Origin: Antedon mediterranea | Taxonomy: Eukaryota; Echinodermata; Crinoidea; Comatulida; Antedonidae | NCBI RefSeq assembly: GCF_964355755.1 | Contig: NC_092672.1 | Location: 27,586,501-27,650,500, forward strand | Reading direction: 5' to 3' | Length of the DNA stretch: 64,000 bases | In this document: piece after piece, positions 21,261-60,967 of the stretch | Position numbering within the stretch: position 1 is the first letter of the stretch | Layout: each line of letters begins with the position of its first letter | Position numbers and translations under genes: made by a program | Notes under the pieces: generated by a model | What the model was told of the DNA's origin: nothing | Databases searched by the model: none | Seen by the model: only the letters and a program-made list of their open reading frames with translations

Positions 21261-21814
21261 GGCTACATCATTCATCTAAGTTCTGAGTGTTCCACATTTA
21301 CAACCTAAACATTACACAGATACAATTTTACATTTTTTTTTTACTTACGCAACACCAGTCACGGTTGGGTTTTTTGTGTGTGGTTTGTTTACTTTTAGGG
21401 CCTAGGCCTAGGCCTAACTGTATTAATTTCTTTTGATAAAAGTTCGCGTGTGAACGACGTGTGTCAGTTGTTTCAATAGAGAGGGCGACCTTATTATTGA
21501 TTGACAAAAAAACATGTCAAAATTATTCTAGGGCTTACTGCAGTTACTGCAGTAACTACAATAACGTATGCATTAAATGTTGGCATGGCTTCTTTATGTC
21601 ACTGTTCTATGGCACGCCAGGACGGACATAAACTATGACAACGTGTTGAGAGTCACATTAGAGCAGGAGCCCAGAGGGGTCAACCTAGCTGGAAAGTTAA
21701 CCAATTTCTATATGCATGTGGCAATTATCTACGTACATATTAATGTATGGAAATGACAGTCTGGCGCGTTTCTTTTGGTGGGTGTGGCTAGGAGGGACAT
21801 TGTAAAGGGTAAAA

Positions 21815-30677: not shown

Positions 30678-30756
30678 ATGTGTTTGCCAATGCCTCTGAT
30701 TTTGTTAACTCTCTTAGCAAGTTTGGAAGGAACTCAAGCACATAGTTATCATTCAA
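30678..30756 (+). CDS. TIE-like: Signal-peptide exon
   Basis: MCLPMPLILLTLLASLEGTQA is a typical signal peptide with a likely cut after TQA. Upstream in-frame Met codons (from 30567) would prefix a polar stretch, so this ATG is preferred. Donor GTGAGT, phase 1. Confidence 0.8.
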
Positions 30757-33700
30757 GTGAGTTATACAAAATAAATATAATAAAATTATAATCAAAGTAA
30801 ATTATACTTAAGAAAGCCAAGGCACCTTCTAAAGATTTACTTCAAGTATATACTTGCTATATACGTCCTTTAGTTGAATATGCATGCCCTGTGTGGCACA
30901 GTTCAATTACGAAAGACCAACTAAGTCAATAGAAAGAGTTCAAAAAAGAGCTCTACGAATCATTTATGGCATGAACTATGTATCCTACGAGTCTGCTCTT
31001 AAATTGTCAGACCTTCCATCGCTAGTTAACAGAAGAGTCCAACTCTTACTGAAATTTGGTAAAGGAATAATAAAGTCCGATACATTTAGAAGCATTCTTC
31101 CCCCTGTTCGTGACATTAGCAGAACCCTGAGGTCTGCGAGTAAGCCTCTACTCAAAATTCCGTTTGGTCGTACAGAAAGATTTAGATCTTCACCAGTCCC
31201 TTTTTTAGTCCGACTCATTAATGATGAATATTGAATAGGTTGGCACTATTTTAACTTACAGGTGGACCAATTTTAATGTGGTAAATTATTATTATTTTTT
31301 TAAAACTAGTTTTACCTTTTATACATAATGTATTTATATATTTTTATCAAATTTTTTAAAATACTACTTTTCAGCCTTTTGGCTGCCGTTGTATTTTGAT
31401 GTCTTTTTATGAATAAATATACCTAAATGAATGAGTTAGAGAATGTATCGTTTAAGAATGATCTCATTAAACAAAATGTTTACACTTAAAATAAAAAAAA
31501 TATTTATAATCCAAATATTGTTACTATTCATCAGTTCCATTGCTATTCAGTGACATCATGTCTTTAACTTAGTCTATTTGGTACCATTTTTAAGCACCTT
31601 TTGTGTATCTTGTTTAATTCTTCTAAATTATGTTTCTGTTTATGTCATTTTGTATTGTTGAGGCATGAAGCTATACAATTGTTATAGGTCCATGGTTGAG
31701 GTAACACGTCACTTTCTGAGTCACACTAAATTATTGAAATAGTGAACTTTTTCAATTCACATTATCTGGTATTACTGCAATTTCTGTATGGTAGATTAAC
31801 TTCAATAGTTATTAGAATCAATTATCTGTTGTTATTGGTTATTAATCCTGAAAGAATAGGCCGCATCTATTTTATAACATAATCAAATGGAAATAAATAC
31901 TGAATCTACACTCGATACACTTACAGTATCATGCCAATAGACAATAAACAGCTTGCAGTATCATATGCAGTGTCTGCTAATAGCAACTTAATAATGTAAA
32001 TATACTTCCTATTTTAAGTTGATTTTGCTCATGATTGTTTAATTTGATCAATTTATAATAAATAATAATTTTAAGCAGGAAGTAGCTTACCGACATTATT
32101 TTCTTCAATGTTAGGAATACCGGATTATTCTGTCAGACTTGTCGATGGCACCGACTTCGGTAATGGTAAGTTACAGTCGGGACGAAACGGCCGGTGGTAT
32201 TTTGATTGTGAATTTTGGCAAATGCAAAACACCGAAGTTGTCTGCAGACAACTTGGGTTTCAAGGCGCGGTATCGTTCAGACAAGAGTCGGGGAGTCGAA
32301 CAACAGCGAGTGGTGACTCTTTTTCCAAATTGGAAAACTACTACAAATACAACTGCCAAGGCACTGAAACACGTCTTTCGAGTTGTCCTGAAGAATACCA
32401 GGGACGGCACGACTCTTGCGACTATGTTTTTATTAAATGTTCAAGTAAGTCAATTTGCTTATTGTTATTGTACATTAACTTTTTGTGTGTATTACATGTA
32501 GAACAAGCCGGGTTATAGTATGGAAATACATTTTTCAATTACATTATTCGTGTCCCCGCCCGTAATTTAAAGATGTATTGTCCCCCTGAAAAAATAATTA
32601 TTGGATACTATATACATATTCTCTAATGTACAAATACCTATGTAGTTTTATTATTAAATTTGTATGGTCGTAATTTGAGTTTTTCTGAGTTCAATTCTTT
32701 GTAATTGTCGTTGTTTCTGTTAAACAAAGCTGTAAGTGGTGGATTTGTTTCTGCTGTTGTTTCTGGTTTTTTTTAGCAATTTGACCTTGTATAATGAGAT
32801 GCATAAAATATGACTTTGCTGGATAAATTTGTTTAGTTTACATGTGTACATTTTTTAAGTCCCAACAGTTCGTCTGGTTAGTCAAAAGAGTAATATAATT
32901 AAAATACTATTCATTAACACTTTCTTGGAGAAAGGGTAATTAATTATCTCAAAATGAGACAGATTGTGTCGTTTAAATCAGAACTTGGTGTACTTTTGGA
33001 TCATATTATTAAATCTCTTGACAGTCTTAAACTTAAACACCCAGACGCTGGCTTCATTATTATGGGGGACCTGAACAGAACTGACCTAGCCCCGCTATGC
33101 CGTGCACATAACCTAAAACAAATTGTGAAAGAACCAACGCGAGGGGATGCAATACTAGATATTATAGCCACCAATCTGAAGCCGTATTATTGTGATCCCC
33201 GAATTGTGTCGCCGATGGGTGCTAGCGATCATAATTGTATTCTGTTGTCAGCAACTACAAGGACGAATAGCAACAAAATCGAAAAGCGTGTAATCAGACC
33301 AATGAAAGCAAAAAGTGTTGAAGAATTTGGCCGTTGGATAACTACCCATGACTGGAACGAGGTTATTAACGCGAGTACTACTGAACAGAAAACGCAATCA
33401 TTTTATTTGTCATTGACTTCTGCTATGAACACTTTCTTCCCGGTTAAATCCATTAAGATACATCCAACTGATAAGCCATGGATTTCACAACAAGCAAAGG
33501 ATCTTATAATGAAACGTCAACACGCTTTTACTAATCATGGTAAATCGCTGGAATGGAAATTCTATAGGAATAAGGTACAAAAAGTGATCAAGAAAGACAA
33601 AATTAACTTTTACAATGAACGTTTATTAAACTTAAAAGCCACTAATCCCCATAAATGGCACCAAGGCGTGCAGATGTTAGCTAATAAAACTAAACCCCAA

Positions 33701-36700
33701 CCACTTATCAGTGTTGAGGATATTCCACAGGATGACTATCATGGTATAAGTAATTTTGTAAACAACCATTTTGCTATAACTTCCCAAAGCAGACCTAGTA
33801 TTGATTTATGTAAGCTCCCTACGTATTTACCTGCTAATAAACCCCCTAATTTAAAAGAATGGGAAATGTATAATCAATTAAGAAAAGTTAAAGTAAATAA
33901 GTCCCCGGGCCCTGATAATTTGCCTAACAGATTAATAAGAGATTTTGCATGCGAACTAAGCATCCCTATGACTAATATCTTAAATGCCTCCCTCAGTGAG
34001 GGTCATGTCCCAACTATGTGGAAGGATGCTATTGTTACTCCGGTTCCCAAAGAAAATGGTTGTACTAGGGTTGACAAATTTCGACCAATCTCGCTTACAT
34101 GTATCCTAGCTAAGGTAGCTGAGGGCTTCATTAAAAAATGGCTCTTAACAGATATCGAGAAAAATCTTGATAACAACCAATATGGTTGCCGTAAACACTT
34201 TTCTACAACCCATAATTTGGTTGATCTACTAAATGTGTTCTATGAAGGTAGTAACATTCCCAAATCTGTTGGTCAGTTAGTTTTAACTGACTTTAGTAAA
34301 GCATTCGATTGTGTTGACCACACAATAGCAGTTTCTAAATTAGTAACACTTGGCTGTAGACCTGAAATTGTACCGTGGTTAATTAGCTTTTTGTCAAACA
34401 GAACCCAACAAGTACGCTATAAATCCACCTTATCAATGAGTGTTAATCTAACATGTGGCATCCCTCAAGGTACGCTCCTTGGGCCTATGATCTTTCTTGC
34501 TCTAATTAATGATGCCATGACTCGCCATGTAAAACTTGGAAATATGTAGATGATTTGTGCATAGGACAGATAGTAAAAAAGGATGTAATTTCCTCAATTC
34601 AGAATGATGTTGCTTTACTGAATGTATGGTCTAATGAAAACAAACTAAAACTTAACCCAACTAAATGTAAAACTATGTATTTTAACTTTCAAAGAAATCA
34701 ATATGAACATGAACCCCTTTTCATTGGTAATGCTACAATTGAAATCGTTAATGAAACTAAGTTACTAGGTTTATGGATAAAAGCTAACCTCAAATGGGAC
34801 CGTAATGTTAAAGAAATTGTATCCAAAGCCAGCAGACGTCTGCATATATTATGTAAATTAAGAAAGTTCAATCTTCCGAAATTTGATCTTGTAGATGTAT
34901 TTAAGAGTTACATAAGACCAAGTGTTGAATATGCTGTCCCAGTATGGCATTCTAGTCTCACTAAAAAACAAAGTGATATGATAGAATCTGTCCAAAAAAG
35001 GGCTTGCAGAATAATATTGTGTAATGACTACATATGTTATGACCAAGCACTCAATGATCTTTCTTTAGACACTTTATCTGATAGAAGGCGTAATCTATGC
35101 TATAAGTTTGCTCTGAATTGTTCAAAAAGTATTCATTTTGGAAAATGGTTTCCAGTGAAGAATGTAAGTAACATGAAACTAAGACGTGTAAAGTATCAAC
35201 AACCCAAATGCAGAGTTGAAAGATATAGAAAACGTGCAATACCATACCTTATCTCGCTTCTAAATGAATAATCAGTATATCACCCAGTACAGCTTTGTGA
35301 TTCTTATTGATGCTTTTAGGTGTTTTTTTTTCTTTTTTTAATATTTTAAGCTAAACTTTTTGAATGTTCCTGTATTGTATTTCTTGTGTAAATTGCCTCC
35401 TTTTTTATATATATTTATCATTGGTTTTATACTTTTATACAAATTTTAATATTGAAAAAATGTAAATATCTTTGTAATTCAGCTAAGGCTGCGATAATGA
35501 TATTGAAATAAATGAAAAAAAAAAAAAAAACTATTAGCCAGATTAATTATGTTAAAATATACGGATGCCCTCCTTCCCTCCCTCATTATAGGCTTACAAC
35601 TCAAGCTAAAAGAAAATGATGGTTTTAGAGTGACCCATGATCTGACGTCTCCACATCTTCGTTTTACACACTGACTTTAAAAATAATGGTAACCTTATCA
35701 ATGATCAAAAGATTGTTTTTGAAACTCATAGGCATAGTTATTTATTCTTCAGACAAGACCTCATCGTTTCGACTTGTTGGTGGTGGTTCAGTTAACCAAG
35801 GACGCGTAGAGTTCTGGACTGGTGACAAATGGCTTTCTATCTCCACGTCTTCCTGGACAGAATCAGAGGCAAAGGTTAGCAGTAAAATCAAACAGTAATT
35901 AGCTTTGAAGTAACCATGAATAATATATTAAAGAAAAAAATGTATTTTTTTTTCTCCTGGCGTAATATTATTGTTGTATATTTTCGTATAATTAATTACT
36001 CGTAGGCCTATTGTATTGCGAATTTGTCTTCTATTTTTTTTATACGAGTAGCAATTTGCCTTTTTGCAAATAAATTAAGGTAAGGAAACCTTTTTCGGCG
36101 CTAATTTAACAAGGGTGTGACATGCAGAGAACAACTTCGTCACATACAAATATCTTGACTCCATAAAATGTTCTAGCACTAAATGTCTACATGTATTATA
36201 CATTTATACATTTAGTGCTAGAACATTGTATATTTTATAATGACGTCAAAATTGGTGATATTACATTTTACACTGTTTTTAAAGGAATTTATCTACTTTC
36301 CTTCTATCTTCATGATCATTTTAAGTATTGATGAATATTTTTCTTAAAAAACATAAAAGGTATTATGCCGACAGCTAGGATATATTGATGGAGCTATTTC
36401 ATTTGGATCATCGTCTGGTTACACCAGTGCACGTTATGGCCAGTCACAGAGTACCGCGTGTCCTACAAATGTGAAATGCTCAGGTTGGGAACCAACGCTT
36501 GGTGATTGTAGCGAACTTTATACGTCATCTTATTGTACTCATGCACATGACGTCAGTGTCAAATGTCATCCTAAAAGGCAATATGTCGGTATGTCTAAGT
36601 GAATTTCACAAAATCCCATTTATGAATAAAACCCTTATGCCTATATTAGGTTTACTATTTAATAGAAGTCATTATCTATATCTAGATTTACGTAAGGGCA

Positions 36701-39700
36701 ACATTCGGTAAATCGCGCGTTACTTCTAGAATGTTTACTCGATGGTATATACAGTTGGTTCGTACTTTCGGTACTGATTTTAACCACCTGATGTAACCCT
36801 ATTTACTAATTAAATTGAGTTAGATTTTATTAGTTATTAGCATTTAAAACGAATTTAGGTTCAACGATTTGCCCCAAGTAGGGGTGTTTTGTTGATGACA
36901 GGCCTATTTTCTTAAACAATTATTTGCGATGAATAAAACATTCCAATCTCTCTCAGTAAAATTATTTGATTTAACACAATTCAATAAATGTATGGGTCCT
37001 TGGGGATAAACTTAAAACCTTTAGATATAGTATTGCAATACTTTGAAAATACTGTAAATACGTATTAACCATTTTTGTCGCCGTTTGAATCGCAAATTTC
37101 TAATTGTTATTGTGGGTACTGTTAGATATATGAACACAAATAAACTTTATTACTATGAGTGTGGGTAGACCCTCCGCGTTTAGCTATCTCCTTCTACGAT
37201 ACTTGTTTTAATAGCTGATAACCGGTTGAACAGCTCGAGTACAGCATCATAATGTTGAAGACAGGCCGATTTTTGTACTTTACTATTTCAATCGACTATG
37301 ACAGTGACAGTTTTAACAAAGTATTACATCGCAAATGGTTTACTGTATTTAGTGGTAAATTATTTATAGGTCTATAAAACATGAACACATATTTCGTTAC
37401 TGAGTGGATAAAGAATATATTTAAAAATTGTTCCTCTTTGTACCCATTGTCTTCCCCATTCCTCAACACTAATGTCATATACAAAACCCAAATTGAGTTT
37501 GTTTAAATTAGTCCAAATCAAAATTTTGGACTCATTTTGTGACAAGTTTCTCTTTCGGAAGTAATTCCCAAGGTGGTAATTTTAGTTGACTACATAAATT
37601 ATTCGTTTCTATAAACGACAATGTATTATAGTCCTGCGGTACGTACATTAAAAAAAACATTTTTCTTAAACGCTGAAATTACTGTGTATTAGAGAACGTC
37701 AATCTGTGGGCACGACATAGATGGTCCGCGAGCAAAGCAAGTATTTCTATTTAATTTAAATTAGATAATAACATTGATTATATTGGTATTCTATGTAGTT
37801 TAATTTTAAATTGGTTGGTCACAAGGTAACTGCCAGTATACTGTAGGTAAGGGGGAAGGTAGTGGAATTGCTTATTGAAAATTATTTATGTTTTTTTCTC
37901 AGAATGTCACTGCTTTGTGTCCTCTGAATGTAACAGAACAACCGGAAGTTGCCCTGGTGACCAATGTGCTGTGGGATGGGCCGGAGATTTTTGTCAAATC
38001 GGTAAAAAGTTAAATTTAATTGGAAAATGCTCAAGAGGACTAATAATTAGATTCATCATTGTAAATTAATTGCTCCATTCCAATTTAATGGTTAAATTTG
38101 TTCTATTCATTTTGCTCCATAATATTTCTTACTATTCTATTATTTTACTCCCTAATACGTTTTTGTTTTCTAAAATGTTGCAATGCATACTGAATACAAC
38201 ACCCATATCAATATAACTCTAATATACAATATTATATAGCAAGGTGCGTAAGTCTACTTCACTACTATTAATACACGTTGTGTAAAGTGTAAATGAAAAT
38301 TGGAATTCCCCCGACTACGTTAATACATTTTTTAGCAATATTTCTGTATAAGTAGAGCATTCACATGTTTTAATCTTAGATTGACAGGTTTATTTGTTTA
38401 TTTAATAATTGAAATCCTTCGAAAATAGAACTACCACCAGCCTTATCAAAACCACCTCGGATGGTTCCTTCCGGAACTTCATTGAGTCCAAGAGTAAATT
38501 GGGATGAATTTTCTTCCAATGATTTTAATGTTTTTCCTGTTGTGGGATACTCTGTGTACTACATCGATACATCTCATATCGGATATGAGGAACATTTAAT
38601 TTGTGATGTTGGTGCTACTACAACTTGTCGTACATCAACCCTCCCTGCTGGTAGAATAATTGAAATCGGTGTAGCATGTCGGATAAAAACTGGATCTACA
38701 AAAACACGAGGACCTCTATCACCGACGGTAAATTTCACAACGTATACAGACGGTAAGAAAGAAAATCCTTTTAAAGTTAGGCCTATCACTATAAATTTGT
38801 AATTAAATATCACAGGTCACAACATAATAAATCTCGTGATAAAACTTTGTAAAAGAAATCAAAACATAATATTAATCAACAGATTCACAAACCCTATTGG
38901 ATAAGCGCGGATGACCATTTTTTGCTTTTTAAATTGAACATTTAGTTGAAATTTAGAATTTTAATCAATCAAAATAAAAAATTGATAATAATAAATTAAT
39001 TTACATACTGTAATTATTATAATTATTATGTAGGCTACCGTGCAGTATATTAGTTTTACAATTTTATTTTGTAATGCTGACTAAGATTAATTCCAAACAA
39101 AACTCAAATAAAGCAAGGTTTTCGGTAGCCTATATTATGTCGTTCCAAAAGAAATCAATATTTGATTGTTTCTCGACGTTTCGATTGTTGTACTCAGCTG
39201 CTTTCTGGAGTCAAGTTGACGCAATTAATGAATAGAACAAGCACAGTCTAATCAGTATTGTTATTATTTTAGAAAAAGAAATGGACTTTATTGTAATGAA
39301 TTACAGTCCTTTGATTGAATTAAACAACCCCGAGTCAAGTCTCAAACTTGGAGGTTACAACACAGGTGAACATCAAACAAATAACGTCAACTTTGGGCGT
39401 AAAATCGGCAATGATGCAATAAATGGTACCGATGGCGAAGAGCTAAACCTAGGCCTACTTGAAAACGGTATTTTGACATCAGATAACAACATGTTTCCTC
39501 TACAAAGCACATTATCGGTCGTTCAGAAGTTTGATTTCACATCGATGCTGTTGGAGCTTCCAGCTAACGTCACTTCCGAAAATATTGGCGTGTTCTACAC
39601 TTGGTCATCAACTGGGGTACTAACTTCTAATATTACAACGTTTAGTGTTTCAAAGGAAGGTAACTATTTTATACAGATATTGCCTGCTTAGAGGTTAAAT

Positions 39701-42700
39701 TTTGAATTGAAATTTCCTTGGGAATGATATTTTGCTCTCGGAAATGTTTCCTTCAGATAAAATCCATTCAATTTTTTTATTTCAAATTGAAGTCCAAAAT
39801 CTAAAAAAAACTGTCAATAAGCTCTAAAGGTCTGCTCATACAAAAGCCTCTTTACTTGACTAATAATTGGTCTGAAGTTTAGAGACAAATGTTATTAAGT
39901 AAAGATACGTTTTAAGAAAGGTGGTAGGCCTAAGCGAAAATCGATTTTAACAGTCTAAAGTATTTCTGACTCTCCCCTGACTGAACTACTTTTCATTGTA
40001 GTTATATGCAGTTTTATTTATTTATTTAAAAAATAGTTTAACATTATTTCATCGTGTATTAACACGTATGTTATATTGTGGAAATAAATTGAAATTGAAA
40101 ATTGAAATTGAAAAGATTAGTAGGCCTATAATTGCAGTTGCCTTTATTACTATCTTTTCATTTATAGCTAAAGTTCGATCAAGGAACAGAACGATAATAG
40201 CAGGTTTTGGAGAAAGACTTGAATTAGAGGTGAACATAGAAGACGGTGATTCAGATGAACTACGTTGGCGCCATAACGGACGTGATGTAATGATTGACTG
40301 GAATGGAAAGACTAGTTTAATTATTGAAAGTGTTCGTACTAAAGATGGCGGTATATACGAATGTTACATAGATGGGGAAAGAGAGCTGGGATTACAAGCA
40401 ATAATTCAAGTTTTTATAAGAGGTGACAATCTATCTTATTTTTTACCCTTTGCGATGCCTGGGGTATTTTATGCCCTCTCACAGTTAAATGTATTCAAAT
40501 CACCAAAATGGGCAAATGTAAACAAACTTCCCCTAAATCCTGTCAAATGCGCCGTAATGCATGTTACAAGATGTAAAGAGATAGTTAACTGGGATTATAC
40601 CATAGAATCAGACAATATTCCTAAAGTTACAGAATTCAAATTTATAGGTGTGTAGGCCTATGCAAATAGTTTGTTGTCGTGTCATACACAAGTTAATTTT
40701 GTTGTTGTAAAGCAAGCAGATTGCTTGGTTTCTTTTCAAAATGTAGTAAAAATATGTCCTGGTTAGCTATGTTGAACTTATACAAAGCCCTATTACTTCC
40801 AGTCGTTACCTACTGTTATTCAATGTGGGCACCATTCATACAGGGCGCCGTATGGGACATTGCTAATTTTTTCGAAATATTACAATTTTGTCTACACAAA
40901 ATTAATTTTGTCAATACAAAATTCATTTTGTCAACACAAAATTCATTTTGTATTTACAAAAATTCATTTTGTGTTGACAAAATTTATTCTGTGTGGACAA
41001 AATTAATTATGTGTAGACAAAATTGTAATATTTCGACAAATTTAGCAATGTCCCAAACGGCGCCCCGTACCTACATATTAATAGAATAGAAAGTATACTG
41101 TACAAAGGAAAGCAACAAGGGTAATAATGTTTAGAAAGAAAGGCAATACTTTTCATAATTCTGTATTTGTTTCCTTTCCAAGACTATGGGAGCAAATACC
41201 AAATGACATAAAAGATTCACAAACACTTTCAATATTTAAGGCTGCTCTAACAAAACATTAAATTTCATGTTATGTATAGTTTATTTGTATTTTTCTTGTA
41301 TATGGTTTTATCTTAACTGTTTGTATTGTATGGAGTGAGTGCAAAATCTAGTTGGGCTTTAGTCTATTCTCATTTCTGGTTATTTTTGCATTGATGACCG
41401 AATAAATATTATTATTATTATTATCTATTTCAAATCGCTCTCGAAGGAGAAGCTATAAATGTTATAAAGGCAATAAAAGTCTACACAACTATCAATATCA
41501 TTAAAAATAAAAAAGACGTCATTGATTTGATGAATTTGTGTTATTCAACATAAATAAAAACAACTCTCTGTTGCTTTAGATTGCCCAACACCCAAATGGG
41601 GCGCCGATTGCGACAAAGATTGCCCAGTTTGTTACAATGGAGGAGTATGTCATACTATCAACGGGACATGTTTGTGCCCTTCTGGGTTTATGGGTGATGA
41701 CTGTAGTGAACGTACGTATCGTTTTTTTTTTATTTCGAATGCTATTAAACAAACTTTAAATATACAAAAGTAGAAGGAGAGTCAATTACTGATTTTTTGT
41801 TTTTGAAGCATGTGGTGACAATAACTGGGGACGTTCCTGTTCAGAAATTTGCAGTAGTTCAAATAGAGGTTGCGACGCCATTTTGTTCTGTTTGCCTGAA
41901 CCATTAGGGTGCTCATGTATGGCTGGGTTCAAAGGACCGGATTGCAACGAATGTAAGTATAAGGACAAGATAAGTGTTGTTTTTTACTTTAGTTTTTCTC
42001 TCTCTTCAATTAGAAAGGAAGCAAGTTATGGTTTCTCTCTTATTATTCCAAGTGTGTCCATACGGGACGTTTGGCGCCGACTGCAAGAGTTTGTGCCACT
42101 GCAAGTTTAACGCCTGTGATAGGTCAATGGGATGTATGAATATAACATGCGATGAAGGTTTCAGTGGACCACAATGTCAAGGTAAGGATATTTAATACAT
42201 CTGACATCATCTACAATTCTGTGACGTCGTAACACGTCATACAATTTGTGTTTGTTTAATACGGTGAATATACACGAATAACCTATATACATTAGGATGA
42301 CACAATGGCTGTTTTGTTGCAGATTATGATTATCCAACACCATGTCCCGATGGTTTCTACGGAACATTGTGCCAGTATAAATGTCACTGTTCTATGACGC
42401 TAGGATGTCTCAAGAATGGAACTTGTCTCTTTGGTTGCCAAGAAGGTTGGGGTGGCGAGGACTGTCAATTTGGTAACTTATAATATTATCTTGAGTGTGC
42501 ACCATTGCCATAGTTATCACAGTACATATCTATACCAACATACTCTATGTTTTGATTGTTTTTTAACATACATTCAACAGCGAGTAACATCACTTGCCAA
42601 CAATGTTACGCAAATTCGGCCTGAAATTTTAAAAACAAAGTTGACACTACAGTGCCCCAAATCATAAACTCGTATTTAAAAAGAAATGAATATAAACTAC

Positions 42701-45700
42701 AAGGACATAACAAAATGAACGCCCTAAAAGAACAAAAAGGTAAAACAACAGAATTGAAATTGTTGATAAGCTTTTCACTGTTTGTACTTCTTGCAGCTAT
42801 CCCAGCTCTTCTCAATCCTCCACGCATCTTAAGGTCTAATTTCCACAGTGTTCATCTTGAATGGGATGAATGGGAAGTCCACAAAGACTACGGCCTGGGA
42901 AACGTTACCGGGTATCGTCTGTTTTATCGGTATACAACGCCCTCTGAAGGTGTAGTACGATCTGGCGATTATACAGAGGGTACAGAACTGGTACTGCGTG
43001 AGCTTAATCCTTGTAGACGATACGAGATATTTATTCGAGCGTATAGAACCATATCTGGTGAGCTATTCATTGGAAGACCCAGTTCATCAGTATTTCATGA
43101 CATGGCTTGTAATTGTAAGTAGCAATATCACTTCATAATTTTAAGACAAATACTAAGTAGCCTATCTATTACTCTATCCCCTTCAAGATTCAAAACTGTG
43201 ATAAGGCCTATCTTGTTTGGATGATGAGAAGGTTGGGGTGGCGAGGACTGTCAATTTGGTAATTAATTTAAGCCTATCTTGCACACAATGGTTTCGTTTT
43301 TTTCAACAGCGAGTAAAAAAACTTGTCAAAGCAGATGCGGTCTAACAATTATTTGACACTAAAGTTCCACAAAAAAACTTTTAGAAAGAAAATGAACGTC
43401 GTAAAACAATTTATAAGAACTGTTTGCATTTTTAAGATTCAAACATGTGATATGCATGCTTAGATGATGAGTTCCATCCAATATTCACATGAGGCACGTA
43501 GGGCTACTATAGTTTAACACAATGTTAATCCGAATTAGTTTCTTCAACAGACGGCAGCGTCGGAGTAACGTTAATGGTACATCCAGCAGTTGTCGATGTT
43601 TACAACAAAACTGACAATGTTAACATCTTTGTTTACTCCGGAGCTCTCTCTACAAACATGAGGCTACGACGTACCTGTAGTACTGGTGCAGCTGATGTTA
43701 TTGGTCGACCTGTGTCTTGGTTTGATGGAAGTCCGTACCCAGGATCACACGTTTTGCCAACTATGATGTTTCCTGAGAATACAATGATTGAAACAGTTGC
43801 TGAGTTTGAATACCACGCCCTCATTGCCAAGATTCCAGGAGAATCTTCTTTGGCCAAAAGTGGTGCCTTTTCTGCTGACATTCTAGGGATATGGGCGTTG
43901 CCGAGTCAGTCTACAATTGTCATCTTAGATAAAAATGGTAATGTTTTCAATTGCAAACATTTCTCTATTATAATGTTTTATTAGTAAGCCTGCATATTAT
44001 GACGTAAGACATATATGTTTTAAATGATTACGGTTTTTTAGTAATAGCCCTACAAGCCATGACAGATAAGGTAAGATATTTGTAACTTTTGATTTTGGCC
44101 AAAAAGGATCAAATTTACAAAGTGTGTTATTACTTACTAAATTACTAAAGGATTGTTGTACGCTGCTTACAAAAACTCCAAATGGAATAAAATAGAAGGA
44201 TATAGTATAGTTTCAAAGAAAAAAGACAGGTTTTAGTGAATATTAAATTGCGTTTCCTTCTTCGTTTTACTTATTTCTTATCATCTACATTTCAGCCAAC
44301 GTTAAGCCTGTGGAGAGAACAGTTGTAGTTGGAACTGGTGATAGAATTGTTCTCTCTGTAACCACTGACAGCAATACAACGGGACTAAGATGGCGCTATA
44401 ACGGTGGGAACGGAATCAAAGAATGGAAAGACAAGGGTACAGTGATCATTGAGCATGCGCGAACCAAAGATAGTGGAATTTACGAATGCCACTTTCTAGC
44501 GAAACGAAATCAAGGAAACCATGCAATTATTCAATTAAATGTTAAAGGTAGGTTTTTAATGCAAGTATAAGAAGTTACAATTAAGAAGGACCCACACTAA
44601 TGATGTATTTTAAAATCATACTATAATTATTTTTAAAAAGTTACAAGATAAATACTCACAACAAATCCACCGTCATTGGTTGTTTTCATTCCATTATTAG
44701 TCATGTTGCATCGTCATTCTAATGATAAATGTTCGGTGTTCTGGTACATCTTAATTCAGTAACTTCATAGCTGCACATCATGAATTGTTTAATAACTTAA
44801 AATAAACAGTTTTAACCTCACTATGTATTTTTTTTACAGATTGTCCATTGGGAAAATATGGACCTGACTGTACCTTAAATTGTCCAGTATGTTACAACGG
44901 AGGGATTTGTGACGCTCAGACGTCATTGTGTGTCTGTCCGAGTGGTTTCACTGGAAACGATTGTTCAGAGGGTTTGTTACTTGACAATTATTAGGTGTTG
45001 CATGTTTAATTATTTATTCGTCTAAATATAATATAATAGCCCTAAACGTTTGTCGGTGCCAACATGTTTGTACGTAATTTATAGCAAATGTGTGATGAAA
45101 GTGTTTTGCAAAATGGTGTAAGCATTTACTTCGTCCATGTTTGCGTGTAGAAGTAGAAATCATTTCACACTTCATTCAATTCAATTCTAAACATTCAAAG
45201 GATGTTAAATAAAGCTTCATTTGTTTCAATTAGTATGTAATTCTGGATATTGGGGAGAAGATTGTTCTTTGAATTGTGACAATGAAGATAATGGTTGTAG
45301 AGGCAACTTATTCTGTCCTGCTTCACCACTTGGTTGTGCTTGTTTGCCGGGATTTCATGGACATGACTGCAATGAAGGTAATAAAGATGGAAATAGTTTT
45401 CTTTAGATATTCCTTGAAGCTAAGCAAAACAACTTAAAGAACCAAACAGTAAAATGAATCGACAGCATTACCAACATATTTGGATTGTCCAATTGATTTT
45501 AAATTTTGGGTCTTTGCTAATTTCATTACGGCCTAAATACACATGGACGGCAAGCTCTACCGTCCTGCTGCCATTTCACTGTCAGGCTAGCAAGATATTC
45601 TTCATCCACTGTATCTGTCAATCTAGCTTAAATATTAATAATATCGTATGGTAATTTGTAAATATGACAATAATTTATAGATTTTCATTTCAGTATGCAG

Positions 45701-47145
45701 TGAGGGTTTCTACGGAGCAGACTGTAAGCAAGTATGCAATTGTCCAGCAGACAATTGTGACTCAGTTGCAGGGTGCGAGATTGAATCATGTTTCCCGGGA
45801 TTTCATGGACCTCAATGCCAAGGTAGGCTAAGCTCATCAGTTGAATTGTTCCATGATGACTTGTTGTTCGTTGTACTATAAGGAATAAACTTTGCGTATA
45901 TGCTAAATATTGGAATACTCAAGTGTACTTCACTCTGCTTCCTCTCTAAAGTAAATTGATGTAGGCTTAAAAGATTGGAGGGTGAGTATAGTGAGAGTTA
46001 GGCGCTATCAAACTATCTTGATGGAAGAGGTTGAATACCGTAGACGGGATAGTTTAGACTAATAGCTAGCCAGACCTTTTAAGCTTGGGAAATACTATAC
46101 AATTTTTTTTTTGCAGAGCATGTAAACGTATCTTGTACAAATGGTACTTTTGGACGTCTTTGTAATCAACATTGCCATTGTCAAAATTCAGATTCCTGTT
46201 ATAGCAACGGCACATGCGCAGATGGAGTGTGTGACGAAGAATGGGGCGGTTATGATTGTCAAATAGGTAACTAACGGTTATTTTAATTTATTATTATTTA
46301 ATTTTTTTCGATAACATTTTCTTGTGAAACTTGAAAATGTCTGCATTTTTATCTTAATTAGCATTACCATACCTCGAACATGGTCCTACATTGTATGTTT
46401 CGCCAAACCGTCGAGAGATTACAGTCAGCTGGTTTGATTGGGTATTTGGTCGGGATTTCGGAAATGGTCCAGTCGTATCCTATGAAGTATTATACAAGGA
46501 CTCTATCAACGGGAACTACACAACGACTGGAGTTACAACAACTACTAAGTTTATATTGAATAAACTGAAACCAGGAAAACAGTATAACGTTGCTATTAAA
46601 TGTCTAAAGGATGTTGATGGACAGATGACGTCTGGACCATTAAGTCCAGCAAGTGCTGTCTCAACCTGTAAATTATCAGGTAAAATACTACATGTAGACG
46701 TGTACTAAGTTAGTTTACTAGACGCATGACAGCCGTTCACAACTGGATATATACGCATAATAATGGTCATTTATTTGAGAACCACGTTTCTGATTGTATA
46801 GTATAGAAAATAGTAATACAGTACATAGATATAACATTCCCATTGTAATTAAAATTGCCTTCGTCAGGAAAATAAATCACATTGACGTTCCTAACAATGT
46901 TATTCAAAACAATAAAATAAGGTCTAGCACACAATGTGGAGCTTTCGACTTGCGTTGAACGATGACCTATGAACTGTTACGTCATAATTCATCATGTGCA
47001 GAATAGGACATTTGAACGTGCTTTCTCACTCAATTTTCCAGGAGACAAACAGCGACATAATAATTGGTCTAGATTGTCGCAAATTGAACGCCTCCTAACT
47101 AATATAACGTTTACAAGAATGTTTCTTTTTATTTCAGATGTATAG
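30678..47145 (+). CDS. TIE-like: SRCR-EGF-FN3 protein with a tandemly duplicated Tie-receptor-like ectodomain, predicted secreted (21 exons)
   Basis: Exons: 30678-30756, 32115-32444, 35753-35874, 36360-36588, 37903-38001, 38429-38752, 39273-39659, 40168-40422, 41580-41711, 41809-41952, 42053-42181, 42323-42472, 42797-43114, 43551-43937, 44296-44547, 44840-44971, 45234-45377, 45694-45822, 46117-46266, 46362-46679, 47138-47145. They sum to 4218 bases, 1405 residues plus stop. Nearly all introns are phase 1. Order: signal peptide, two SRCR domains, EGF, FN3, then twice (Ig1-like, Ig2-like, four EGF, FN3). Likeness to vertebrate Tie1/Tie2 is close: MDFIVMNYSPLI opens Ig1 as MDLILINSLPLV does in Tie2, and FCLPEPLGCSC matches FCLPDPYGCSC. 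Tie receptors bind angiopoietins through these domains; here no TM or kinase is found, so a secreted or decoy role is inferred. The last tiny exon is the least certain. Confidence 0.85.
30817..31440 (+). mobile_element. LINE 3' fragment (RT C-terminus and 3' UTR)
   Basis: RT thumb/connector signature YIRPLVEYACPVWHSS, then ERVQKRALRIIYG and PFLVRLINDEY with a stop at 31232-31234. One frameshift near 30929. The 3' end carries tgaataaatatacctaaatgaatg. It is a 5'-truncated copy in intron 1. Confidence 0.85.
31441..32114. other. Intron 1 remainder
   Basis: AT-rich, no element recognised. The acceptor TTCAATGTTAG precedes 32115. Confidence 0.6.
32115..32444 (+). CDS. TIE-like: SRCR domain 1 exon
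   Basis: A whole SRCR domain in one 330-bp exon: VRLVDGTDFGNGKLQ, TEVVCRQLGFQGA, YNCQGTETRLSSCPEE, SCDYVFIKC. Six cysteines. The paralogue exon at 56222-56551 has the same length and phase. Confidence 0.93.
32954..35531 (+). mobile_element. LINE retrotransposon, 5'-truncated, with poly-A tail
   Basis: It begins inside the endonuclease (FIIMGDLNR, ASDHNCILLS). The reverse transcriptase follows with LTDFSKAFDCVDH (motif A), CGIPQGTLLGPMIF (motif B) and YVDD (motif C). A single-base frameshift at about 34535-34550 splits it into 531- and 238-codon frames just before YVDD. The 3' UTR ends in A16 at 35516-35531. It lies sense in intron 2; the long frame suggests a recent insertion. Confidence 0.93.
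35753..35874 (+). CDS. TIE-like: SRCR domain 2, first half
   Basis: FRLVGGGSVNQGRVEFW, then WTESEAK. Donor GTTAGC at 35875, phase 0; the domain continues in the next exon. Confidence 0.92.
36360..36588 (+). CDS. TIE-like: SRCR domain 2, second half
   Basis: VLCRQLGYIDGAISFG, CSGWEPTLGDCSE, HDVSVKCHP. The donor is GTATGT at 36589, chosen because it restores phase 1 for the following EGF exon. Confidence 0.9.
36686..37297. repeat. Dispersed repeat, copy B (partner 14354-14790)
   Basis: Same orientation and the same two conserved blocks as copy A, with a longer, different middle (about 36893-37165). It sits in the intron after the SRCR exons. Confidence 0.75.
37903..38001 (+). CDS. TIE-like: EGF-like exon before FN3
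   Basis: ECHCFVSSECNRTTGSCPGD and CAVGWAGDFCQI: a short laminin/MEGF-type EGF, phase 1-1. Confidence 0.88.
38429..38752 (+). CDS. TIE-like: FN3 domain exon (first)
   Basis: 108 residues with the FN3 pattern: PPRMVPSGTSLSPRVNWDEF, GYSVYYID, then LPAGRIIEIGVACRI and GPLSPTVNFTTYTDG. Phase 1-1. Confidence 0.88.
39273..39659 (+). CDS. TIE-like: Cassette 1: Tie Ig1-like exon
   Basis: 387 bp, 129 residues. MDFIVMNYSPLIEL aligns by eye with the start of mature Tie2 (MDLILINSLPLV). No cysteine is seen in the domain. It has the same length as the cassette 2 exon at 43551. Confidence 0.87.
40168..40422 (+). CDS. TIE-like: Cassette 1: Ig2-like exon
   Basis: 255 bp. LRWRHNG (strand C Trp) and TKDGGIYEC (strand F). 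The strand-B cysteine is absent (RLELEVNI), so the canonical Ig disulphide cannot form. Confidence 0.87.
40441..41427 (+). mobile_element. LINE 3' fragment interrupted by a MITE
   Basis: RT C-terminal pieces LPLNPVKCAVMHV and VTEFKFIGV, then LLLPVVTYCYSMWAPF. A 221-bp MITE follows and the LINE resumes (ERKAILFI, SQTLSIFKAALTKH across frames). It ends in (ATT)n at 41403-41425. Several frameshifts. Confidence 0.8.
40844..41064. mobile_element. Palindromic MITE nested in the LINE fragment
   Basis: Inverted ends GGCGCCGTATGGGACATTGC and its near complement (ending ggcgcc at 41064) pair over ~100 bp. Inside are ~20-bp iterations of acaaaattcattttgtc. No target duplication recognised. Confidence 0.85.
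41580..41711 (+). CDS. TIE-like: Cassette 1: EGF 1
   Basis: 132 bp. CPVCYNGGVCHTINGTCLC and PSGFMGDDC match Tie EGF1 (NNGVCH..TGECICPPGFMG). Confidence 0.92.
41809..41952 (+). CDS. TIE-like: Cassette 1: EGF 2
   Basis: 144 bp. NNWGRSCSEIC and FCLPEPLGCSCMAGFKGPDC; the FCLP.P.GCSC string is a close match to Tie2 EGF2. Confidence 0.93.
42053..42181 (+). CDS. TIE-like: Cassette 1: EGF 3
   Basis: 129 bp. CPYGTFGADCKSLCHC, ACDRSMGC, CDEGFSGPQC. Resembles Tie EGF3 (GFYGPDCK..C.C...CDR..GC). Confidence 0.92.
42323..42472 (+). CDS. TIE-like: Cassette 1: EGF 4
   Basis: 150 bp. CPDGFYGTLCQYKCHC, GCLKNGTCLFGC, GWGGEDCQF. A fourth EGF not present in vertebrate Tie. A relic of its 3' end lies at 43228. 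Confidence 0.92.
42797..43114 (+). CDS. TIE-like: Cassette 1: FN3 exon
   Basis: 318 bp, 106 residues: PPRILRSNFHSVHLEWDEW, YRLFYRY, LNPCRRYEIFIRAYR. Phase 1-1, same length as the cassette 2 FN3. Confidence 0.92.
43228..43420 (+). pseudogene. Relic of a duplicated EGF 4 exon end and its intron
   Basis: gaaggttggggtggcgagg...tttggtaa repeats the end and donor of exon 42323-42472. The following sequence (tgcacac, ttcaacagcgagtaa, acttgycaa) repeats the start of the next intron. Only the final ~33 exon bases survive. Confidence 0.8.
43551..43937 (+). CDS. TIE-like: Cassette 2: Tie Ig1-like exon
   Basis: 387 bp, the same as exon 39273-39659. VTLMVHPAVVDVYN at the start; WFDGSPYPGSHVLP and ADILGIWALPS later. 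One cysteine. Confidence 0.87.
44296..44547 (+). CDS. TIE-like: Cassette 2: Ig2-like exon
   Basis: 252 bp. LRWRYNGGNGIKEWKDKG and TKDSGIYEC. The strand-B Cys is again absent (RIVLSVTT), as in cassette 1. Confidence 0.9.
44840..44971 (+). CDS. TIE-like: Cassette 2: EGF 1
   Basis: 132 bp. CPLGKYGPDCTLNC, CYNGGICDAQTSLCVC, GFTGNDC. Confidence 0.93.
45234..45377 (+). CDS. TIE-like: Cassette 2: EGF 2
   Basis: 144 bp. GYWGEDCSLNC and FCPASPLGCACLPGFHGHDC; same spacing as cassette 1 EGF 2. Confidence 0.93.
45694..45822 (+). CDS. TIE-like: Cassette 2: EGF 3
   Basis: 129 bp. CSEGFYGADCKQVCNC, NCDSVAGC, CFPGFHGPQC. Confidence 0.93.
46117..46266 (+). CDS. TIE-like: Cassette 2: EGF 4
   Basis: 150 bp. 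CTNGTFGRLCNQHCHC, SCYSNGTCADGVC, EEWGGYDCQI. Confidence 0.93.
46362..46679 (+). CDS. TIE-like: Cassette 2: FN3 exon
   Basis: 318 bp: LYVSPNRREITVSWFDWVF, VVSYEVLYKD, LNKLKPGKQYNVAIKCL. Donor GTAAAA at 46680; read-through would stop at 46706-46708. Confidence 0.92.
47138..47145 (+). CDS. TIE-like: Putative terminal exon with stop codon
   Basis: A strong acceptor (TTTCTTTTTATTTCAG) at 47122-47137 joins in phase 1 to give D-V-stop. A polyadenylation hexamer follows at 47271. No TM or kinase exon was seen before the next gene starts at 54.1 kb. Plausible but unproven. Confidence 0.4.
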
Positions 47146-54209: not shown

Positions 54210-54270
54210 ATGTATTTTACATTGCATATTTTTGTGTTTGCTCTCTTAGTCAGTTGGGAAACAATTAGTG
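54210..54270 (+). CDS. Signal-peptide exon of the paralogue
   Basis: MYFTLHIFVFALLVSWETIS, donor GTGAGT at 54271, phase 1. Confidence 0.78.
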
Positions 54271-56551
54271 GTGAGTGAACTTTTAAATGATTATTTAATA
54301 CATTTTTTTGTTGACAACGACACTCCAAGAAAGCTACTTCCCTGAAGTAACTAATTATAACTACAGTCTGGTGGAGCTGTTAGCAGTTTGCTATCTCTCA
54401 CCCCCCCCCCCCCCCCACCACCCAAAGGCAAAGGGAAGTATGGTACAACATGATAGTTTGAGTAATCAAGCAAAACGTGTTTTGTACTAGCCGTTCTTAA
54501 TGGTGAAATTTGTTTATATGAGCTTATTTGATTTTTATAGGTAGTTATAAGACTATTCTAGATATAATAATAAAAAAAATTGTGTGTGTGTGTTATTTTA
54601 GCTCAAAATGTCCCTTACTTCCTTCTGCTTTGGTATTATGAGCGCACTATGTTGGAAAAAACTATATTGAAAGGAAGCAAATCCATATTAATTATAGTAA
54701 ATCATGGTCACATGGAAAATCAAATTATAAATTAATGGTAAGCAGTATCCTCTACATTAATTATTACACAAAACCAGTATATCAAACTTTGATTTACATA
54801 AAATAGACATATTAAACATAATTACTTGAAAAATCTCCTGAAATATTTTTTTTTTCGTTCTAGAAAATATTTCATACCCAAAAATTTTAATTATTAACTC
54901 ATAATACATGCAAATATTTCTCAATCATCACAATTACTATATCTTCTGTGAATATGATACTTTTTTTAAATTTTTTTTATTCATTTGGTAGAACAAAAAA
55001 AAAAAAACAGGGACAATTCAATTAATTGTTTTTAACATTAAGACTAGGCGAGGTCTTGAGTGCTACAAACAATACAAAAAACTACAATACAAAAATAATT
55101 TTACTCCCTAACGCTTGTTATTTTAAAACAGTGTAGTCACAATACAAATTGGATGGTTAAAAATGTTGCATGGTAATAACAAATATATAAGATGAAATAA
55201 AAATGTCGGGCTTTTAATAAACATAAACATTTACGACACATTTTGGAAAGCATGTGCTTCATCCCTTGTAGTCGTACTCGCATAAAATATGATATGTGAT
55301 TTGTGTTTCTGTACTGTTTCATTTTATAATTCTACTTTTACTTAATATAACCTAAATACTGGCCAATATTCAATTGAAAATTGTCATGATCCAGTACCTA
55401 CTAGCTGTCTGTCAAATTTTATTTTAATACTATATAATAATTATAATTTATGTCAAACATTTCAGATTACAACATTTGTATTTATTTGAAGTAGGCCTAA
55501 CACTCTGTAAGTCTTTGAAAACAAAATGCATAAAATCATAAATTAAAACATTTGTTGGTATTTTGGTTAGAATCATCTTTATTTTGGAGTAAATTCTGCA
55601 AGAAATAAATGGTTTAATCAATCGATTGGAAAAGATACTTCCCTGGGACAGCCATAATACTGCAATCGGATTAGCTAGCGCTTATATAATGGTACAAGCT
55701 TGTCTCATACTTCCTTTGCCTTGGTTTTATTGTCAAAAAGTGAACATACTTCCTAATTATGATATTAATATCTCGCTTAATATCAGGTTTCTGGCAATGA
55801 TTTTTAGTTTAAAATGTGCAGAATGATCCCCTGAATCATGTACGACCCATAACTCATTTTAAAAAAAAATTCCCATACCTTCCCTTCTTTGCCATAGGGT
55901 GGGGGAGGGGAGCATGTTGGTTAACGTGCTTGCCTTCCAATCTACAGTGTTCTAATTCACGACTCCACTCCACTCCACTCCTCAAATGATTCTGTAGTTG
56001 CCGTGTCTTGCTGTTGAATATGAAATATAAACAAATTAAGTTTTCAATTTGGATCTTGACACATTGCACTGATTGGTAAAGGCCTGGGTCTACGGTTATC
56101 AAACTTCCGTACTTAGAATGTATTAGTTTCTCGGACTTTTATTTTATTCTAGACTACTGTTTTAAATTGTAGAAATAAATTATTTAATTAACTTAACTAG
56201 CTTACCTCTTTTGTATGTTAGGTACATCATCGAACCATTCTGTTAAACTTGTCGATGGTACAGACTTCGGTAATGGTAAGCTACTGGTGCGGAGAAGCGG
56301 CACGTGGTATTTTTTTTGTAATACTTGGGATATGGAAGACACTGAAGTTGTCTGTAGACAACTTGGTTATGAAGGAAGTGTATCGTATACTAAAGCGTCA
56401 GGCAGTCGAACAACGGAACTTGGTGATACCTTTTCAAAGTATAGTAACAACTACGGATACTATTGCCAAGGAACTGAAACACATCTTTCAAATTGTCCTG
56501 AAAGATACCAGGGATACTCTTCCTGTGATTATGTTTTAATTACCTGTTCAA
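54210..56551 (+). CDS. Second SRCR (Tie-like paralogue) gene, 5' exons only
   Basis: Signal exon 54210-54270 and SRCR exon 56222-56551 copy the layout, phases and 330-bp SRCR length of the gene at 30678. Nothing after 56551 matches the next exons of that gene. A gypsy element starts at 57.07 kb, so the rest lies beyond 64 kb or is lost. Whether the Tie-like part is present is unknown. Confidence 0.75.
54271..56221. other. Intron of the paralogue
   Basis: A C run of about 17 near 54400, a (TG)n stretch near 54582, and A/T homopolymers at 54845-55010. No gene or clear element. Confidence 0.6.
56222..56551 (+). CDS. SRCR domain exon of the paralogue
   Basis: VKLVDGTDFGNGKLL, TEVVCRQLGYEGSVS, YYCQGTETHLSNCPERYQG, SCDYVLITC. 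Strongly similar to 32115-32444 and of equal length. Confidence 0.93.
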
Positions 56552-57236: not shown

Positions 57237-58519
57237 TTAAACATCCATAATATAATCTCTAATCCAACTAGGTGGATTTCGATTCCTTCTTCTTCTACGA
57301 GGTTCTGCTAAGTTATTTGCTATGTTCTTTGAAGGAATATTATCTGAAATGGGAAGCTCAATTAAATCACTATCATCAAAGTCTATCATCTATCTATCAA
57401 GGAGCCAAATACTTAACATTCCATTTTTGCCCATTAGTCATGATATAGGCATATTGACCAAGTTTCTGTCTGATTGTAACTGGTTCAGTGAATTTACTCT
57501 TCCCCTTACGTACCCTCTAAGGTTTCTTAATTCTAACCACATCTCCAGGGTTGAAATATCTGTTTTAACACGTTTACGCATGTCATAGCTCTCCTTGGAT
57601 TGTGCTGGTCGCTCTTTAACTCTATGGTCTACTTCCTCAGGTTTTAATTGAGGGGGGTTGTTAGTAACACCTGCAATATCTAGCATATTTCTCAAATGTA
57701 GTCCATGCAATAAAACCGAAGGAGTTTCGCCAGTAGTGGCATAACGCGTTGCCCGATATGTGCCTAAACACTCTGTGAGTGCAAGTCTCACTGGTCGCTT
57801 TTCCAATCTCGCTGTGTGGATAGTTTCATTCAGAATTCGATTAAACCGTTCAATCGTACTATTCCCTTCAGGGTGGTAAACCGTGGAAAATCTGTGTTTG
57901 ATATTTTGCTTAGCGAGAAACTTTTCAAATTCTCGGCTTGTCAACTGTGTCCCATTATCTGAAAGTATCTCATCAGGGTAACCTTCTCTACTGAAAACTT
58001 CAATTAAGAACGTAATTAGAGTTTTTGCAGTGATGTCTGAACAAAACGAAACTTCAGGCCATTTACTACAGTAATCAATCAGGGAAATTATATAACGCTC
58101 GTTTGCCGGAGCCGATTAATCTGCTCCTACAAAATCAATATCCAATTTTTTCCATGGGAGTTCTGGTAAGGATACTGGTTGCATTGGGGCAATTTAGCTG
58201 ACCTGGCAAGTCACACAGTGTTTAATTGCCTCAGAACGTGTACATCTATTTTAGGCCACCAGTAAAGGTCACGTAATCGCTGTTTAGTTCGAACTATACC
58301 CTGATGGTTTTTATGCGCAAATTGAACTAACTGAGCAGTAAGTATTGAAGGTACAACAACATGCTGACCCCTAAATATAATCCCATTGTGAGTAGCTAAC
58401 TCATCCTTAATTCGGTGGTACGGCTGTACACTTTCTGGAATATCTTTTTTGTTATTAGGCCAACCCGAATTTAGGTGTGCTTTAAGCTGTGTACAGACCT
58501 CATCATCCGTTCGTAGCAT
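57237..58519 (-). pseudogene. Gypsy integrase and pol C-terminus
   Basis: In order: VQFAHKNHQGIVRTKQRLRD and YWWPKI (zinc-binding end), then DYCSKWPE, LSDNGT and TIERFNR, supplying the D, D and E catalytic positions. A basic tail (EPRRRRRNRNPPSWIRDYI) stops at 57237-57239. At least one in-frame stop lies near 58120. Confidence 0.85.
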
Positions 58520-59194
58520 TTTCTAATTCTGTTTTCGTTGTGGCTTTATATGCATCCGATAGAACAATTTGACAAACCGCATCGTCATCATCCTCATTTA
58601 TAGCTGAATCGGACGTTTGTATTGGTAATCGCGAATGGGAGTCTGCAATTTTATTTTGTGCACCCGGTTTGTATTCCACCTTATATTTATAATGAAGCAA
58701 ACGTGCGCCCCATCGCGCAATACGCATTGGTCTACGACCTGTACCTTTTGAAGAAAGTACAGTTATTAACGCCTGGTGGTCTGTGCGAAGTAAAGTGTCT
58801 CCCCCACAGGTAAGTATGCCATTTTTCGACCGCCCACACACAGACAAGTGCTTCGCGTTCCCCCACCGAATAATTGCGTTCAGGACCTGTTAACGTTCTA
58901 GACGCACATGCCACTGTTACCTGTGTACCATCACGTGTTATTTGAGTAAAGTACCGCACCGAGGCCATAGCCACTGGCATCAACAACTTTAAGATTCGGA
59001 TCAAATAATACAAGGCTTGAACTGTTAATAATATCTAATTTAATATTTTCCAAAGCAGAATTTTCCTCCTCCGTCCAATTGAATGGTTCAGTTACTAGGA
59101 TCTGCCTCATAGCGTTCACTTTAGATGTGAAATTGGGAACAAATTTGGCATAAAATCCTACCAGGCCTAAGATGTTCATTGCTAGTTTAACCAA
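58503..59194 (-). pseudogene. Gypsy RNase H region
   Basis: GLVGFYAKFVPNFTSKVNA and FNWTEEENSALENIK, then CASRTLTGPERNYSVGEREA and LRTDHQALITVL. Three overlapping frames show two frameshifts. Confidence 0.85.
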
Positions 59195-59199
59195 ACTGT

Positions 59200-60180
59200 A
59201 TTAAACCATATTTTATTAACTTCATACTATATCCACACAAGTAACATACAGTAACAAATGCATTTTCATTAAAAAAAAAATTTTAACTAGCTAATTTGCA
59301 TAATTAATTAGCGTTGATTGCATAATTTTCAAAATAATGTAGCGCTTTAACCAACTGTCATACATAGTTGATTGAGATGTCAAATTAAAGCTCTTCCCAA
59401 GATCTATCCAATGGCCTACATTATATATTATTTAGGGGGGTATGTGATAAACTATGGAAAAATATCTCATGTTCTGAAAACCAAAATCTCAACTTATGTC
59501 ATGTGAAAAGTCTGGTACTACCTATATTATTTATTTTGAGGCCATTAAATAGAGCACACTCTAAAGACCATTTCTGCCCATTTTCAAGTCTGTAGGGGGT
59601 GTAGTTCTACTTCTATATTTTTTCAAAATCTGTAAAACATTGAAAATTTGAAACATAGGAAATCCCGTGTTCTAATATAATTTGGACAAAAAAATAATAC
59701 AGCACATGGTATCTAAAAATAGCCTATTGGAATATCCCCTATATCATGACAAGAGAGGGCAGCAGACACATAAGTTGAAATAACCACTAAAAATGAATTT
59801 TCAACATGGTAGGGGTAGTTTTTATCAGTAAAATTTCAAATTTTTGGTTTGGTTGCCATGGCAACCGGCATGTTATTACCGTTTTTTATTAATTTATTAA
59901 TAATATTAATATATATTTTAATCAATTTTTTTTTTATGTAAGTACAAATACTAAATTACTTAATTATAATGAAAAAAAAAATTGAATAAATTCTCATTTT
60001 TAGTTTCCTAACCCACATATAACACCTTTTTAAGAATGACTTAAGCTGTTGGCAGTTTGTAGAGGTTGCTGCTTTGGCGATGCCATTCACTAACTCATTA
60101 CAGTACCTGGATGTATCCCTTGTATCTATGTATCTATTACATTACTTTCATTTATTTAACATCAAACTCACATTTATCAT
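59200..60180. mobile_element. Unclassified ~1-kb insertion in the gypsy RT
   Basis: AT-rich non-coding sequence separates RT motif C (ending KAEHDT near 60220) from the RNase H lead-in (59194). It has no recognised ends; part of the RT thumb is also missing. Confidence 0.5.
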
Positions 60181-60216
60181 TTAAGGTCATGCCTTTCAAC
60201 CGGGTAAGTACCGCCA

Positions 60217-60776
60217 TTAACGCCCTGTGTCATGTTCTGCTTTGTCGCGTCCGGAAATAATAATATCATCTGTAAAGCATTGTAAGTTAGGTATTCCAGC
60301 CAAGATGGTTGACATCTTCTTTTGAAAACAAGGTGGGGCCGATGATAAGCCAAGACAAAATGTACGAAAACGAAAAACCCCATCATTTGTTATAAATGGT
60401 GTAAGGTTCCGACTACCAGAATCCAACTCGAGCTGGTGGTAAGCAGACTTAAGATCTAATTTAGAAAAATGAGTTGCTCCTTGCATCTCACTTAATAGCT
60501 CTTCAATCGAAGGAAGTGGAAATTTATCTTCCACTATAGCTTCATTCGGTTTCCGTAAATCGACACATATTCTGATGTTACCGTTTTTTCCACGCTACCA
60601 CTAATAGGCGAGATCCACTCAGAAGAGTCAACTTTTTCAATGATGCCTTCATCGAGAACCGCTTGCCGCACCGTAAATGGAAGTCTACGTAGTTTTTGTT
60701 GCACCGGTTTTATACCAGGAGGAACTTTGACCTTATGTGTAAAACCTTTAACTTTACCTAGCCTTTCTGAAAACAA
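60217..60776 (-). pseudogene. Gypsy reverse transcriptase palm
   Basis: GFTHKVKVPPGIKPVQQKLR, then FSKLDLKSAYHQLEL (motif A) and FCLGLSSAPPCFQK (motif B). FTDDIII stands in the place of the usual Y.DD motif C. One frameshift near 60534-60600. Confidence 0.87.
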
Positions 60777-60967
60777 ACATCGAAACTGTGATTGTACATC
60801 ATTAAAAGTAGTCTTAAAACACGAAAGTGTGCTCCCGTCAATATTGATACCAAGGCCTTGAATTAAGTCTTTACCTATTAAACTACTGCCCTTTTAAACC
60901 ACATAAAGTGTTGTTGTAGCACATTCTGTATTGCATTTAACATTAGCTTTAAAACAGCCTACAGTAT

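Follow-up and report, generated by a model that had tools for sequence, protein, structure and literature searches.

A predicted secreted protein with two Tie-type ectodomain cassettes in Antedon mediterranea, from a family that appears to include receptor tyrosine phosphatases

Tie is usually regarded as a set of one or two kinases that control vessels, and we know of no receptor-type tyrosine phosphatase (RPTP) with a Tie-type ectodomain. Among the papers listed by literature searches, likewise, none reports such an ectodomain on a phosphatase. The available excerpts of the literature describe SpTie1/2 in a sea urchin (PMC12113024), name the Tie2 loop Phe161-Glu169 as the angiopoietin contact (PMC8294587), treat echinoderm R3-type phosphatases, there described without Tie-type ectodomains (PMC5336234), and present SRCR proteins as opsonins in a starfish, along with an expansion of SRCR genes in a sea urchin (PMC13409769, PMC10855680). 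PMC8870065, PMC5638244, PMC10815196, and PMC11788884 contributed nothing further.

Here we analysed a stretch of 64,000 nucleotides of the A. mediterranea genome (NC_092672.1, positions 27,586,501 to 27,650,500; hereafter the window), containing a gene, W1, that resembles each of these systems in part. With Tie1/Tie2 (Tie2 chains 2gy5 and 4k0v; SpTie1/2) it shares the order and sequence of Ig2-EGF1-EGF2-EGF3, and its EGF exon lengths are near those of the genome's own Tie (132, 135, and 117), but it differs in having two such blocks, a fourth EGF, SRCR domains, no membrane segment, no kinase, and no recognisable contact loop. Some relatives in this genome join the same ectodomain to phosphatase domains, as in RPTPs (relative B finds its best PDB matches in RPTP alpha, epsilon, and LAR-type chains), whereas W1 itself has no phosphatase. 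With the invertebrate SRCR superfamily it shares two front SRCR domains and tandem copies, yet the excerpts on that superfamily contain no combination with doubled Tie-type cassettes.

Gene W1 and its tandem copy

A sequence-only reading had placed two seven-exon blocks in the window, and both proved exact to the base in position and length (Table 1). All are open phase-1 exons bordered by AG and GT; shorter chance alternative exons are also present inside some of them. The blocks form the 3' end of a larger gene, W1, for which we obtained a 21-exon model (30678-47145) of 1405 aa, open, with agreeing phases and GT-AG borders throughout. All 21 exons join in frame, so both cassettes can be read in one polypeptide, as had been proposed. 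The model translation gives, in order, a signal-like start, two SRCR domains, a partial EGF, an FN3, cassette 1, cassette 2, and a stop. Pfam SRCR matched two stretches of the joined N-terminal part (E 4e-30), which count as SRCR domains, while the FN3-type exon upstream of cassette 1 gave no Pfam FN3 match. A third cassette, since lost, may have left this exon and the shortened EGF as its tail. Reverse-transcriptase-like frames were seen by eye on the + strand of the second intron (32918-35271), and the window also holds tandem arrays at 7868-8742 and 21813-22709, with units of 98 and 291 bases.

Table 1. Features of W1 and W2 in the window
Feature	Position	Length (bp)	Strand	Basis
W1 exon 1, start and signal-peptide-like sequence MCLPMPLILLTLLASLEGTQA	30678..30756		+	in-frame model; 70% DNA match to W2 exon 1 region
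W1 SRCR domain 1, single exon	32115..32444		+	model; Pfam SRCR
W1 SRCR domain 2, first half, then phase-0 junction	35753..35874		+	model
W1 SRCR domain 2, second half	36360..36588		+	model; Pfam SRCR
W1 shortened EGF, closest to the end of EGF4	37903..38001		+	model; comparison
W1 FN3-type exon 5' of cassette 1	38429..38752		+	model; shuffle scores against cassette FN3s
Cassette 1 first (X) domain, position of Tie Ig1	39273..39659	387	+	no Pfam match; poor structure model
Cassette 1 Ig domain, Tie Ig2 type	40168..40422	255	+	Pfam; Tie2 match
Cassette 1, four EGF exons	41580-41711, 41809-41952, 42053-42181, 42323-42472	132, 144, 129, 150	+	Pfam; Tie2 match
Cassette 1 FN3	42797..43114	318	+	below Pfam cut-off, E 8.5e-4
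Cassette 2 first (X) domain, predicted V-type Ig fold	43551..43937	387	+	structure model
Cassette 2 Ig domain, Tie Ig2 type	44296..44547	252	+	Pfam; Tie2 match
Cassette 2, four EGF exons	44840-44971, 45234-45377, 45694-45822, 46117-46266	132, 144, 129, 150	+	Pfam; Tie2 match
Cassette 2 FN3	46362..46679	318	+	Pfam, over cut-off, E 2e-7
W1 last coding stretch, Asp-Val-stop	47138..47145		+	model; same end in W2
W2 exon 1, start and signal-peptide-like sequence	54210..54270		+	model; DNA match to W1
W2 SRCR domain 1 (remaining W2 beyond the window)	56222..56551		+	model

The Tie-like nature of both blocks was borne out by comparison with PDB sequences, in which the Ig domain plus EGF1-3 found Tie2 chains as best match, with E 1.6e-37 for cassette 2 and 1.6e-36 for cassette 1. 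Non-Tie2 matches reached 2.8e-5 or weaker, and the sole other EGF protein listed 1.7e-3 and 3.4e-4. Pfam assigned exon 2 of each block to Ig and exons 3 to 6, taken jointly, to EGF-like domains, giving four EGFs per block and not three as in vertebrate Tie. The first (X) domain of either cassette had no Pfam match. That of cassette 2 (X2) was modelled with a V-type Ig fold (pLDDT 73.6, five models 50-74; VIA Z up to 11.3), its structure matches being many V-type Ig domains and none specific; Tie2 was absent among the matches listed, which excludes nothing. The predicted fold fits the place of Tie Ig1, and does not identify X2 as Ig1. The model of the first domain of cassette 1 (X1) was poor (pLDDT 47.7).

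The angiopoietin-contact loop was not recognisable by eye in 18 aligned Ig exons, nor was it seen by eye in the genome's own Tie; the PDB alignment of cassette 2 with Tie2 seems to start after the loop. Its lack would count against a plain angiopoietin role for W1, and says little either way on shared ligands, because the genome's own Tie also lacks it by eye.

A second gene of the same build, W2 (1399 aa), begins in the window and ends near C3:27668794. At the DNA level W1 and W2 are 70-90% identical over the 5' part, rising to 95-97% downstream of about 41983. Ka/Ks ranged from 0.10 to 0.53, below 1 in all six exon groups compared (two of which, X1 and Ig1, are subsets of another, with exons 1, 3, and 4 left out), and both genes look constrained. 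On the - strand of the second W2 intron (57438-61426), retroelement-like frames (integrase, reverse transcriptase) were seen by eye. A third, fragmentary copy lies at C3:27671683-27677868, with a start-like exon, two SRCR pieces, and no cassette seen; no EGF1 signature follows it on its contig.

Relatives of the ectodomain and their phosphatase domains

A DNA pattern for the Tie-type EGF1 signature (CPxC[YH]NGG) gave 69 matches in the genome against 0 in a reversed control. These fall into 17 groups (gaps under 150 kb), and the pattern misses at least one more EGF1, in the second cassette of relative B. A single signature out of 69 belongs to the true Tie kinase, whose locus (C6:4268001-4288000, - strand) contains an Ig frame, exons for EGF1-3, kinase exons and, by eye, a membrane-like stretch and frames resembling FN3. 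The kinase exons of this locus match Tie2 with E 1.6e-61 (next family 8.3e-35) and its EGFs with E 3.9e-23; the 20 kb read contains a single EGF block.

The doubled ectodomain is not exceptional here, for at least seven doubled genes occur at three sites in this genome: W1 and W2, four genes at C3:13.14-13.22M (three of them with a second cassette seen in part, cut by the edge of the sequence examined), and one at C6:30.44M. This count derives from 14 joined regions read, versus 69 signature sites. Gaps between cassettes in doubled genes measure 99-653 bases. That exon lengths across relatives are all multiples of three is no result, because the exon finder imposed phase 1.

Pfam Y_phosphatase exons were found inside several of the EGF1-signature clusters. 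For at least 21 of the 69 signatures, a phosphatase exon follows on the same strand no more than 30 kb downstream, compared to 1 in a strand-swapped control; the rule allows no intervening signature except one closer than 9 kb, which is taken as the same gene, and two pairs share one phosphatase. Counts of kinases, SRCRs, and phosphatases are lower bounds, among the matches listed. As an example, gene B (C6:30.44-30.46M) carries doubled cassettes followed by a membrane-like stretch and a pair of phosphatase domains. The first of these domains contains WPD and, once an inferred splice is made, HC-SAGVGRTG. The best hits of B in the PDB were RPTP alpha and epsilon (E about 2e-73). The second domain of B and the phosphatases of L025 and L027 show altered signatures (for instance WVD and SDGVGRTG in L027). 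Phosphatase activity would thus be supported for one domain only, the first of gene B, because the other phosphatase domains read are altered.

Among the relatives, a PTP domain was found in B, C5, and C6; no phosphatase match appeared in the regions examined for A, C, D, F, and W, most of them short. Within the gene B cluster, SRCR exons lie 5' of at least two more phosphatase-bearing relatives, and in B2 the single cassette has at least four SRCR sites ahead of it. Judging from these matches, the Tie-type ectodomain family mostly lacks a nearby kinase and appears to include receptor-type tyrosine phosphatases in this genome.

Two further architectures were noted. On the - strand of L025 (6794-7474; C5:7.73M), tyrosine motif repeats (VEPIYAEPE, AEPVYIEP) lie between a membrane-like stretch and the phosphatase exons. 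At L018 (C8:12.11M, - strand), a C-type-lectin-like frame, seen by eye, follows the FN3 of a Tie-type cassette and may be another architecture or a neighbour gene.

Possible roles of the W1 product

W1 had been described as a receptor. Its model does not bear this out, because only two codons separate cassette 2 from the stop (C-terminus STCKLSDV-stop) and no membrane segment was seen. The start is hydrophobic by eye, and since no membrane segment, kinase, or phosphatase was seen in the model, we predict a secreted protein. The phosphatase exons of the relatives found no match in the W region either. W2 has the matching stop, which is weak support for secretion because the 3' parts of the two genes are about 95% alike, and a splice form of W1 could reach an unseen membrane exon.

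We consider W1 to be, with reasonable though not strong probability, a soluble, bivalent member of the Tie-ectodomain family that includes receptor phosphatases. It would be secreted as one chain from one transcript, and its double head could bind the ligands or surfaces bound by the membrane-bound relatives. With two heads it might act as a bivalent trap or a bridge, competing with the relatives' receptors or clustering them. The probable setting would be cell recognition or immune-type defence, and the SRCR domains and tandem expansion fit with immune-type recognition.

A humoral recognition protein or opsonin, in which SRCR domains and double heads bind microbes or damaged cells without any link to the relatives' ligands, is a less likely yet serious alternative. 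The two SRCR domains of W1, its tandem and expanded family, and the opsonins and expanded SRCR genes that the excerpts above ascribe to starfish and sea urchin speak for it; against it, the excerpts examined contain nothing on microbe binding by Tie-type heads.

That the region holds two neighbouring genes or an assembly error instead of one polypeptide seems very unlikely to us. The one-polypeptide model does come from genomic sequence, but its exons are all in frame, inspection by eye showed no signal-like start in the 436 bases that separate the cassettes, and the corresponding gap measures only 99 and 114 bases in relatives A and Ap. Moreover, synonymous differences between the W1 cassettes are saturated, so they are too diverged for a recent assembly duplicate. 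We give equally little credence to the view that W1 is a receptor-phosphatase copy in decay, no longer working after the loss of its membrane and enzyme parts: relatives do have such parts and the third copy next to W1 and W2 is fragmentary, but 1405 codons run without frame damage, the splice borders are intact, and the Ka/Ks values between W1 and W2 stay below 1. Least probable of all, and rejected here, is a Tie receptor tyrosine kinase whose ectodomain has been doubled. Both cassettes do find Tie2 as best match. Against this reading, the model runs into a stop, and a TIE2 kinase query found no match in the joined 104 kb. Among the kinase matches listed, none comes within 30 kb of a signature except at the separate Tie locus, and that true Tie, with one block, sits apart at C6:4.27-4.29M.

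Beyond the soluble, bivalent protein that we favour, a broader and distinctly doubtful idea is that the Tie-type ectodomain is a common recognition module, placed on opposing enzymes (one kinase, many phosphatases) and on soluble double heads that bridge or trap shared ligands, in a push-pull reading of one ligand system. The Tie ectodomain is here an expanded module, adjoining the opposite enzyme at many sites and apparently also occurring as a free double head. Its age and original role become testable, including a recognition role before vessels.

Origin of the doubling

Protein identity between cassettes 1 and 2 of W1 is highest in EGF1 (60%), followed by EGF3 (51%), EGF2 (49%), EGF4 (46%), and Ig (42%), and falls to 21% in FN3 and 16% in the first domain. 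The correspondence of the blocks exceeds chance. Each of the four EGFs has its positional counterpart in the other cassette as best-scoring partner. Relative to shuffled sequences, the FN3 pair scores higher by 10.9 SD and the first-domain pair by 5.3 SD, with 0 of 300 shuffles reaching either.

The sequence-only reading had explained the two blocks by tandem duplication. The block is indeed present twice; as to a single internal event, the W1 cassettes as one clade are neither supported nor rejected (AU p 0.215). For the trees we took 31 cassette records and dropped 6 lone FN3 or EGF4-FN3 rows, leaving 25 in the first tree; the tree with the first domain has 15 rows and the AU-test set 19 (six near-identical A rows left out). 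The W cassettes sit on long branches; the tree that includes the first domain joins them weakly (54.9/65), the tree that omits it does not join them, and neither places them firmly with the phosphatase members.

Simple internal duplication was rejected in two relatives. The first cassette of A groups with B and the second with the C5/C4 group (one clade, AU p 0.006), and the two cassettes of B are split by the single cassette of B2 (AU p 0.016). The doubling must thus have come about more than once, or have been reshuffled. The B cassettes are 59-85% alike in six of the seven exons and 24% in FN3, and B thus looks like a younger but not simple doubling. In W1, the intron between the cassettes holds at 43213-43257 a fragment, not found in W2, that resembles the end of cassette 1 EGF4.
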